Positions 412 to 50,176 of a DNA stretch of 64,000 bases are shown here, piece by piece. Position 1 is the stretch's first letter, and every line of letters begins with the position of its first letter. A program made the position numbers and the translations under genes. The notes below the pieces were generated by a model. It was not told the DNA's origin and searched no databases. It was given only the letters and a program-made list of their open reading frames with translations. Source of the stretch: Selenomonadales bacterium (GTDB lineage: Bacteria > Bacillota > Negativicutes > Sporomusales > UBA7701); NCBI GenBank assembly GCA_029975165.1, contig JARKPR010000067.1, positions 62,001 to 126,000 of the forward strand, given 5' to 3'.

Positions 412-695
412 AACCCCGTCCCTGTACAGGGACGGGGTTTAATATACCCGTGGTACCACCCTGCTTGCTTATAATGGCAAGCCGCTCTCTTCAGGTACGG
501 GACGTGCGTCCGATACCCTAGCCCATGATAACGGTGGCGTTCCGGCGCGGTCTACTCGCCAGTGGCTTTCAACCTGCTGCTCGCGGGTGTATTTCGGTCA
601 GCGCGCCTGCCGGGTCGCACCGACCCCCGGCTCTCTGGGAAACGCCTCTGGCTTACTTCTCCCGCTCATCGCATTTCGCTGTGTTGTTGATAGTA
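412..695 (-). promoter_or_regulatory. T-box leader of aroF, probably tyrosine-specific
   Basis: On the minus strand the T-box core AGGGTGGTACCACGGG lies at 447-462. It is followed at 412-440 by a GC-rich terminator hairpin (ACCCCGTCCC / GGGACGGGGT type stem) with a T-rich run. The 5' part has the typical stem I features: an AGTA turn near 652-658, an AGAGAG element, and a GAA-containing specifier region. The best specifier candidate is UAC (Tyr) at 589-591, followed by A. Uncharged tRNA should favour the antiterminator and allow aroF transcription. The T-box identity is firm; the amino acid is tentative. Confidence 0.92.
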
Positions 696-47416: not shown

Positions 47417-48390
<974 letters not shown>

Positions 48391-48431: not shown

Positions 48432-48488
48432 CGGCACTCCGGAAGCGGGACGGTATCGGTCCCATAGTCAGAATTTTGCATTTTTTCC

Positions 48489-48518
48489 TTGACACCAACT
48501 GAGCGCCTATGACATAAT
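48489..48518 (+). promoter_or_regulatory. Promoter of the iron-hydrogenase-like gene
   Basis: TTGACA (48489-48494) and CATAAT (48513-48518) are 18 bp apart, a good sigma-A match, about 270 bp upstream of the coding start. Confidence 0.75.
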
Positions 48519-48521
48519 TTA

Positions 48522-48537
48522 TGTATACGCGTATACA
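48522..48537. promoter_or_regulatory. Perfect 16-bp palindrome, operator overlapping the transcription start
   Basis: TGTATACGCGTATACA is a complete palindrome located four bases after the -10 box, where a bound repressor would block initiation. The GTATAC half-site form is reminiscent of GntR-family operators; the regulator is not in the window. Confidence 0.7.
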
Positions 48538-48539
48538 CC

Positions 48540-48675
48540 GTTCAGCGCGCCCGCGGGCAAAGCCGCCTGCGTCTATCCGGCCTAGAAGACTACTCCCCTC
48601 CTGCGGCAACGGGGAAAGAAAACTGATACGGCTCCGGAGAAGCGTGTTGATGCGATGCTGTCAGCACCTTTTTTC
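48540..48675 (+). promoter_or_regulatory. Structured leader ending in an intrinsic terminator (attenuator or riboswitch candidate)
   Basis: Between the promoter and the coding start is a leader with TCCGG / CCGGA pairing around 48577-48637 and an internal CCCC / GGGG hairpin. A terminator hairpin follows, GTGTTGA (48644-48650) with TCAGCAC (48661-48667), then CTTTTTTC. A terminator placed about 115 bp before the start codon inside a leader implies conditional read-through. I could not match the sequence to a known riboswitch class. Confidence 0.55.
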
Positions 48676-48790
48676 TTGGCGGCGGGAAAATTTCTTCGTC
48701 CGGGCAGGGAAAAAAAGCGCAGGAAAAGAGTAATCTTGGCATAATTAATCGAAGATAATAAAGACGGAACGTTTACGCCGAGGTGTTCAT

Positions 48791-50176
48791 ATGCCTGCCC
48801 AAGCTCCCCTCAACATCAAGCCCCGCATCCTCTATCAGGTGGCCAAGGCCGCCTGGGAGGGCCGGCTCTTCGAACGGCGCGAGGACATCTGCCGCCTCGT
48901 CTACGAGGAGTTCGCCGACCGCGTGACCCGCCGCCGGGTGGCCAACGAGATCCGCATCGCCATGGGGCTCGACCCTCACGACAGCGACACCGTCCTCGGC
49001 GAACACGATGCCGAAGCCCTCATGGGCATGGCCGGCGAACCGTTCGTGGTCGCCAACCCCGACGCCTGCCGGCATTGCGCCCCCGGCGACCGCAACTGCC
49101 AGCTCAGTTGCCCCGTGGGGGCGATCAGCCGCGACGAAATGGGCCGGGTGCGGATAAACCACGACGAGTGCCTCGGTGAAGGCCGCTGCGTGGAGGCCTG
49201 CTCCTTCGGCGCCCTGGCCGAGAAGTCGAATTTTGTCCCGCTGATAGAGCTCCTCCGTCAGCGGACCCAGCCGGTGTATGCGTCCGTGGCTCCGGCCTTC
49301 GCCGGCCAGTTCGGCCCCGCCGTCACCGCCGGCAAGCTGCGCTCGGCCCTGCTGAAGCTCGGCTTCGCCGAAGTGGTCGAGACGGCCTTGTACGCCGACC
49401 TCATCACGATGAAAGAGTGTTTCGAGTACGACGCGCACGTGCAAACGGAACGGGATTTCCTCATCACCAGTTGCTGCTGCCCGGTGTGGATCAAGCTGAT
49501 CGAGAACAAATTCCCCGAGCTCCTCAGCCACATCTCCCCCTCCGTTTCGCCGATGGTCGCTTCGGCGCGGGTTATCAAGGCGCTGGACCCCGACGCCAAG
49601 GTGGTCTTCATCGGCCCCTGCGTCGCCAAGAAGTCGGAAGCCCTGCTGCCCGGCCTGAAAGGCGCGGTCGACTTCGTCCTCACCTTCCAGGAGCTGACCG
49701 CCATCTTCGCGGCCACCGGCGTCGACCCGGCCGACCAGCCTGACGAAGAAAACTCCCAAGCCTCCTGGGGCGGCCGCGTGTACGGCCGCACGGGCGGCGT
49801 CAGCGCCGCGGTCGCCGCCACGCTCGCCAAGCTCATCCCCCGCCGGGCGGAGAAGTTCGCCGCCCGTCAGGTCGACGGCATCCCCGATTGCCAGAAACTG
49901 CTCGAAAGCCTGAAAGGAGGCGACTTCTCGGCCAATTTCGTCGAAGGCATGGCCTGCAAGGGGGGCTGCGTCGGCGGACCCGGCCGCATCCTGCCGCCGG
50001 AGGAAGGCGCCCGACATGTTAACGCCTACTCCGACAAAGCCGCCAGCCACATCCCGGCGGAAAACCCCCAGGTCTACGCCATCCTCGCCCGGCTCAGCCA
50101 CGAAACCGGCACCCCCGCGCTGACCGGCGAAGGCCCCATCGCCACCCTGCTGGCGCGCAAGCTGGCTGAAGACTGA
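48791..50176 (+). CDS. Iron-hydrogenase-like H-cluster-domain protein with ferredoxin domain
   Basis: This 461-residue protein has a 2[4Fe-4S]-like segment followed by an iron-only hydrogenase large-subunit domain. The H-cluster motifs are recognisable but variant: TSCCCPVW (C228-C230, an extra Cys), GPCVAKKSE (C277) and EGMACKGGCVGGPG (C389, C393). The ferredoxin part is also atypical: C93-x2-C96-x6-C103-x3-C107P, and CLGEGRC with Glu130 where a fourth Cys would be. It may be a sensory or otherwise divergent hydrogenase rather than a classic H2-producing enzyme. ATG 48791 is preceded by GAGGTG. It has its own promoter, palindromic operator and terminator-containing leader. Confidence 0.85.
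   Translation: MPAQAPLNIKPRILYQVAKAAWEGRLFERREDICRLVYEEFADRVTRRRVANEIRIAMGLDPHDSDTVLGEHDAEALMGMAGEPFVVANPDACRHCAPGDRNCQLSCPVGAISRDEMGRVRINHDECLGEGRCVEACSFGALAEKSNFVPLIELLRQRTQPVYASVAPAFAGQFGPAVTAGKLRSALLKLGFAEVVETALYADLITMKECFEYDAHVQTERDFLITSCCCPVWIKLIENKFPELLSHISPSVSPMVASARVIKALDPDAKVVFIGPCVAKKSEALLPGLKGAVDFVLTFQELTAIFAATGVDPADQPDEENSQASWGGRVYGRTGGVSAAVAATLAKLIPRRAEKFAARQVDGIPDCQKLLESLKGGDFSANFVEGMACKGGCVGGPGRILPPEEGARHVNAYSDKAASHIPAENPQVYAILARLSHETGTPALTGEGPIATLLARKLAED

Follow-up and report, generated by a model that had tools for sequence, protein, structure and literature searches.

A putative layered control region upstream of a group-B-like [FeFe] hydrogenase gene in a Selenomonadales bacterium

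The region preceding a group-B-like [FeFe] hydrogenase gene is best explained, in our estimate at even chances, as a layered control region, in which a distal promoter with its operator (P1), a leader that may act as a switch, and a proximal promoter-like element (P2) would serve a hydrogenase-oadA unit. The initial annotation of the window, i.e., the whole stretch of 64,000 nucleotides that was analysed, had described a promoter, a perfect palindrome over the start site, a leader, and a T-run terminator in front of this gene; all of them are present at the places given, the observation as a whole being confirmed and its interpretation as two control layers, repression and attenuation, partly supported. 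On present evidence, the region belongs to known kinds, namely a GntR-type operator and a terminator/antiterminator leader, and forms no new class; as the operator recurs before other central-metabolism genes, we regard it as real but largely familiar in kind.

From the sequence, its conservation, the sharing of the operator motif, and an alternative pairing predicted in four of five species, we infer repression, a regulator family, a signal, termination, control of read-through, and promoter activity as follows. The housekeeping-type P1 (48489-48518) would start transcription near 48525, and a repressor acting as a dimer or a pair of dimers, most likely a member of the FadR/FCD branch of GntR, would sit on TGTATACGCGTATACA and block the P1 start whenever a C3/C4-acid signal is absent. 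In the P1 RNA, an antiterminator would arise by pairing of the first nucleotides after the operator with the terminator 5' arm, and P1 transcripts would either read through or stop near 48675. The presumably older P2 (48721-48745), located 3' of the terminator, would drive the gene independently.

The hydrogenase gene, its distal promoter, and the operator

48489..48494, plus strand: -35 box of P1, TTGACA; alignable in 5/5 genomes of the genus, weakest in G002
48510..48518, plus strand: extended -10 of P1, TGaCATAAT; ATAATTTnTGTATAC is kept in 5/5 genomes of the genus
48522..48537, plus strand: operator TGTATACGCGTATACA, in which two TGTATACR units abut, over the predicted start of transcription
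48780..48785, plus strand: Shine-Dalgarno sequence GAGGTG
48791..50176, plus strand: group-B-like [FeFe] hydrogenase gene, 461 aa
50259..51614, plus strand: oadA / pyruvate carboxylase subunit B-like gene, on the same strand 82 nt downstream of the hydrogenase gene

The hydrogenase reached 228 bits with PF02906 (cut-off 22.1) and 358 bits with TIGR04105, 'monomeric [FeFe] hydrogenase' (group B), the latter being below the cut-off of 450. It displays the motifs TSCC, PCxxKxxE, and CxxGCxxG at 226, 276, and 389, which we take to be the H-cluster cysteine motifs of [FeFe] hydrogenases. The oadA-like gene is probably the second gene of the same unit. The upstream neighbours are peptide ABC transporter genes, the last of which ends at 48390.

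P1 consists of TTGACA (48489-48494), a spacer of 18 nt, and CATAAT (48513-48518), with the TG of an extended -10 at 48510-48511; between 47500 and 49500 it is the sole sigma-70-like site, with 0.2 expected from shuffles. Its predicted start, taken as the end of the -10 plus 7, lies at about 48525. Perfect 16-bp palindromes occur eight times in the window versus 1.9 expected from composition, so that perfection alone is not rare; the operator sequence itself is, with one match at up to two mismatches in 64 kb and none in 100 shuffles. Within the window alone, therefore, only P1 and the specific operator sequence exceed chance; the comparison with relatives places the operator well above it and the leader moderately so.

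For this comparison, the 30 loci that scored best in a search of 60 genomes (L005-L034) were each taken with 700 nt of upstream sequence. The perfect element TGTATACRCGTATACA, located directly 3' of ATAATTT, was present in all five members of the genus (G000-G004) and in none of the 25 other orthologues, single operator half-sites being found at some loci outside the genus (L014, L016, L017, L020, L028). Each of the five genomes has its only perfect TGTATACNNGTATACA at the hydrogenase gene, and 10 of the 60 genomes had any. Outside the genus, neither a perfect operator (25 upstream loci) nor a matching leader (RNA model, 28 genomes) was found at the hydrogenase gene. The conservation in homologues on which the initial annotation had staked its reading was thus found within the genus (operator in 5/5, leader hairpin in 4/5), and with the operator present and the promoter alignable in 5/5 genomes, the reading withstood this challenge there.

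A stretch just 5' of the P1 -35 box (48471-48487), comprising GAATTTT (5/5) and AT-rich sequence, is conserved in the genus as well and may serve as an UP element or as a second binding site.

Other sites of the operator motif and the candidate regulator

One-mismatch copies of the operator lie just upstream of the gene for pyruvate:ferredoxin oxidoreductase (PFOR) in four of the five genus genomes (G000, G001, G002, G004), each of which holds exactly this one further site at that threshold; PFOR was named by a TIGR02176 family search in G001 and by reading the same N-terminus in the other three. No further site at one mismatch was found in G003, whose genome is about 87% complete. With up to one mismatch, the motif occurs at 10 sites in G000-G005 compared to 0 for a reversed control, and at 25 sites compared to 7 in all 18 genomes of that search; class-wide, 36 of 380 genomes revealed a perfect site, versus 4 with the reversed control.

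The neighbourhoods of 28 operator loci were read. Sites were located upstream of malate dehydrogenase (G036, G053), an adjoining citrate synthase-aconitase pair (G035, G052; L119, L120), sodium:dicarboxylate symporters (L173, named by search, as well as L177 and L181, whose translations resemble it), and glutamate dehydrogenase (L193, likewise named by search). Versions with one mismatch or a 1-nt spacer precede oadA (G006), pyruvate carboxylase (G008), CoA-transferase (G053, G036), and a DASS transporter (G006), and versions with 1-nt spacing precede PEP carboxykinase (L210, L211), aspartase (L205), and isocitrate dehydrogenase (L223), the names of these targets having been assigned by search for one member each. 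Judged by these neighbours, the recurring theme of the putative operator targets is the pyruvate/oxaloacetate/TCA node. Many copies in other genera adjoin genes without an evident link, and the one-mismatch sites L126, L131, L138, and L139 (those of G030 and one each of G008 and G006) have no pyruvate/TCA-type neighbour. The site of G005 sits between biotin carboxylase and an ORF that we take to be uvrC-like; GTATACTGTATAC is present, too, in the gap between hydrogenase and oadA in G005 and G008. Triple arrays of TGTATACN-like units with an 8-bp period were observed in G006 and G008 (L132, L141) before a DASS transporter and pyruvate carboxylase.

Since the motif precedes PFOR in the genus and pyruvate/oxaloacetate/TCA genes in relatives, the hydrogenase operator appears as one site of a central-carbon regulon, of which our literature search, covering the motif as well as GntR/pyruvate/hydrogenase/antiterminator, retrieved no description. 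In this bacterial class, the motif marks out a candidate regulon and links a group-B-like hydrogenase to PFOR and the pyruvate/oxaloacetate node, which allows a proposal for the role of the enzyme, namely a turnover of hydrogen coupled to the oxidation and carboxylation of pyruvate. With operator and promoter kept in 5/5 genomes and the motif recurring before genes of this node, the repressor control suggested at the outset is well supported, and P1 is probably repressed through its operator.

As for the protein, a GntR-family regulator had been guessed, and the site agrees with such a binder as a candidate: the TGTATACA units fit the operator consensus NyGTM-N0-1-KACNy given for the FadR subfamily of GntR regulators in the available part of its description (PMC4494728), with N0. 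We consider it probable that an FCD/GntR protein binds here. According to the accessible part of the report on Atu1419, an FCD protein of Agrobacterium fabrum (VanR branch of the FadR/FCD GntR repressors) with a solved structure including its site, that regulator binds ATGTATACAT, and its site overlaps the -10 box or falls between -10 and -35 (PMC7797058). The unit is similar to ours; as far as that part of the report goes, Atu1419 uses ATGTATACAT in separate, distant palindromes, whereas here two abutting TGTATACR units, 8 bp apart, lie over the predicted start, and its targets belong to hydroxycinnamate degradation, whereas the putative targets here are a hydrogenase and a pyruvate/TCA regulon.

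Among the matches listed for the spacing variants GTATACN1-2GTATAC (nine genomes), 7 of 19 are found no more than 700 bp from an FCD domain (0.09 expected); none of these seven is a hydrogenase site, and one of them (G005:C16) falls within the first codons of a divergent ORF. An FCD-GntR gene of the genus (PF07729 and PF00392; G000:C26:235044-235718) is located between aconitase and RidA/citrate synthase (L227-L231); a search named aconitase at L227 and citrate synthase at L231, RidA being the name that we presume for the remaining neighbour. Orthologues of this gene (at least 66% identity) were present only in G000-G007 of 19 genomes, and genomes devoid of it also carry the motif, for which reason we name the family and not the protein; a more distant FCD relative (33-39%; G000:C26:176513-177124) was found in 19/19 genomes. 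Autoregulation of the FCD gene beside aconitase was set aside, the upstream GTATACATGTATTC falling in the first codons of a divergent ORF. In several families (L219-L226), FCD-GntR genes adjoin GTATACN1-2GTATAC with characteristic flanks (GGTATAC..GTATACC, AATGTATACAGTATACATT), which suggests a flank-coded specificity among the FCD-GntR paralogues.

Rex controls fermentative hydrogenases, and its control would likewise couple the expression of hydrogenase and PFOR. It was rejected, as no Rex-like site (TTGTTAANNNNTTAACAA, up to three mismatches) occurs in the window.

The leader and its predicted alternative pairings

48542..48550, plus strand: 5' strand of the predicted antiterminator, UCAGCGCGC
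48576..48579, plus strand: UCCG of the outer arm, pairing with 48635-48638 in the window's own fold, absent from the four-species consensus
48594..48615, plus strand: central hairpin UCCCC...GGGGA, also a hairpin in the four-species consensus (columns 79-84 with 92-96)
48616..48631, plus strand: conserved linker AAGAAARCTGATACGG between the central hairpin and the terminator
48642..48650, plus strand: 3' strand of the predicted antiterminator, GCGTGTTGA, overlapping the terminator 5' arm
48644..48667, plus strand: terminator-like hairpin of the predicted fold, aligned in four species
48669..48674, plus strand: T-run after the hairpin, uneven in relatives

The leader pairings named in the initial annotation were recovered in the predicted fold, with four pairs of TCCGG/CCGGA and with UCCCC/GGGGA (48594-48598 with 48611-48615), but the stability of the whole fold is no better than that of shuffles at any of the three extents examined in the window (z = 0.38, 0.12, and -0.36). 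The terminator alone is not clearly above chance either, with one site of such kind in 2 kb versus 1.7 expected in shuffles and a z of -1.86 for hairpin plus tail. The T-runs after the stem comprise 6 (G000), 7 (G003), 4 (G002), 3 (G004), and 5 (G001) residues, those of G002 and G004 being short.

Four leaders of the genus align, the linker and the terminator arm being the best-conserved part after the operator in these four of five species and the body being poorly conserved. The fifth species, G001, has kept operator and P1 and lost the leader sequence, which has no match with the RNA model and differs on sight. The covariation comparison proposed at the outset, carried out on these four leaders, revealed only 2 of 20 antiterminator pairs in which both partners had changed, a value reached by 84 of 500 column shuffles; with four sequences, covariation is thin.

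Folding each leader without the 3' arm of the terminator brings the sequence immediately 3' of the operator into pairing with the terminator 5' arm region. Such an alternative pairing, excluding the terminator, is predicted in four of five species (G000, G002, G003, G004), comprising 9, 14, 14, and 21 pairs, respectively; G001 gives 14 pairs in another register. In a sequence-only alignment, columns 22-25 and 27 pair with 132-129 and 127 in 4/4 aligned species, and column pair 26-128 is G-C in G003 and G-U in two others. Compared with 2000 shuffles of the 5' segment, the duplex energy gave p = 0.026 (G000), 0.0005 (G004), 0.0015 (G003), 0.066 (G002), and 0.27 (G001); upon shuffling of the leader after the operator (400 times), the observed pairing was reached by 65 (G000), 1 (G004), 11 (G003), 21 (G002), and 13 (G001). 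Of the antiterminator cells, 75.3% were paired, compared with 71.8% after shuffling of columns (a value as high arose in 10 of 500 shuffles) and 27-43% when slid by one to three columns, a control that favours a structure derived from the same sequences. When strands were paired across species, the own partner was best in 3/5 columns and only 1/5 rows, so that strand-by-strand co-evolution is not demonstrated; a concerted shortening of both strands in G003 was withdrawn, since the alignment does not bear it out. In full-length folding energy, the terminator state and the state with a blocked 3' arm are close in G000 (-47.5 / -45.1) and G003 (-41.4 / -39.9) and further apart in G004 (-51.8 / -44.3), G002 (-45.8 / -35.3), and G001 (-24.2 / -18.8).

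Attenuation, the second layer suggested by the initial annotation, gains from the exclusive antiterminator predicted in four of five species but suffers from moderate significance and uneven terminators. Regulated attenuation at this leader, with termination and a control of read-through, is plausible and falls slightly short of an even chance in our judgement, being weaker than the repressor layer. Leaders with an intrinsic terminator and an antiterminator are a general class in Gram-positive bacteria, in which likewise a 5' RNA strand pairs with the terminator 5' arm and the two structures are mutually exclusive; as a difference from that class, no T-box, riboswitch, or other Rfam family was recognised in the leader described here. 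No leader peptide was noticed on reading it.

The same data bear on a simpler explanation, an operator-controlled P1 without attenuation, in which the leader would be a long untranslated region and its hairpin would terminate weakly or not. G001, retaining operator and P1 after loss of the leader, fits it, as do the terminator and the whole fold at shuffle level in the window and the uneven T-runs; the superior conservation of linker and terminator arm in four of five species and the antiterminator pairing on shared columns in 4/4 speak against it, and we consider it somewhat unlikely. For deciding whether attenuation adds to repression, the genus offers a natural comparison, with four species possessing the leader and one devoid of it.

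A search against Rfam 15 gave no match at gathering score in the leader, in line with the earlier statement that it matches no nameable riboswitch class, and only five weak matches below gathering score, none of them credible, at the five genus loci; a known riboswitch or T-box was accordingly rejected. Elsewhere in the window (425-678, minus strand), a T-box leader was identified (RF00230, 114.1 bits), the only Rfam family above gathering score there. Applied to 28 genomes of the order, the RNA model gave 74-88 bits at its four source sites; with hits on their opposite strands set aside, the best others reached up to 38 bits (G009, G008, G013) and, when read, proved to be two ordinary terminators and a hit that lacks a T-run. 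As no further clear copy was detected in these genomes, the leader was rejected as a repeated genomic element.

An orphan riboswitch, or else a protein-bound RNA, in the 3' part of the leader, sensing a metabolite through the linker AAAGAAARCUGAUACGG and the central hairpin, would account for the good conservation of this linker in four species, mostly single-stranded as it is in the consensus, and for the missing Rfam match. The element is small and variable for a typical aptamer, however, is represented by four sequences with little covariation, and has no match in G001 or outside the genus, which makes this explanation quite improbable. We are equally sceptical that the genus-specific leader, comprising the operator-proximal antiterminator, the central hairpin, and the conserved linker and located directly 3' of the GntR operator, is a new cis-regulatory RNA for a pyruvate-, oxaloacetate-, or hydrogen-linked signal; if true, one metabolic signal would be read twice, at the DNA and the RNA level, before the hydrogenase-oadA unit.

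The proximal promoter-like element

48721..48745, plus strand: P2, AGGAAAA - N11 - GCATAAT (AGGA-N17-TAAT), with a sigma-H-like -35 and spacing

P2, which the initial annotation had missed, falls 3' of the terminator, and the hydrogenase gene need therefore not depend on read-through. Its recurrence was analysed in 37 upstream regions (5 of the genus and 32 others), left from 51 after dropping identical ends; several of these regions belong to species related to one another, and L059 is included with an unresolved start. AGGAAWW-N10-13-RNN(T/A)AA was found in the last 110 nt before the gene in 18/37 regions (shuffles 1.2, maximum 5) and at 220-330 nt upstream in 0/37, and AGGA-N17/18-NAAT in 14/37 (shuffles 1.5, maximum 5). 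At a spacing of 17-18 nt, TAAT occurred as -10 in 7/37 (shuffles 0.4) and NAA in 22/37 (shuffles 3.9); within the genus, only the window has TAAT, while the other four reach just NAA at such spacing. A strict sigma-H -10, GAAT, was rejected for P2, being present in 0/37 regions (shuffles 0.2).

The mapped sigma-H promoters of Sporomusa sphaeroides KIAC are described, in the available part of the report, as AGGA and GAAT separated by 17-18 nt, with pfor and hynA among the carriers of such motifs (PMC12456013). By that description, P2 shares with them the AGGA -35 and the spacing and differs in its -10, which is TAAT/NAAT here. Based on its recurrence, we consider it rather likely that P2 is active as a promoter. 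P2-like elements are also present in orthologues of other families without P1, so that the proximal promoter is most likely ancestral and the distal, repressor-controlled P1 with its leader an addition of the genus.

The location of P2 and its presence in orthologues devoid of P1 would also suit a separate short RNA gene (~150 nt), formed by P1 and the terminator under a GntR-type repressor, with the hydrogenase unit made from P2 only, and the aligned hairpin kept in four of five species points in the same direction. Elsewhere, however, the motif precedes enzyme genes, the leader body is poorly conserved, which is unusual for a trans-acting RNA, and the RNA model has no further clear copy in the 28 genomes of the order, so that we deem such an RNA gene improbable and retain the layered control region as the preferred reading.

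The Shine-Dalgarno site may be covered by a hairpin of CTTGGCATAA and (TTA)CGCCGAGG (48735-48786), which is predicted for four of five genus members; in the window, the hairpin (CTTGGCATAA/TTATGCCGAGG) has a z of 0.08. As its 5' arm coincides with the -10 region of P2, it would form in P1 transcripts only, and could make these long transcripts poorly translated.
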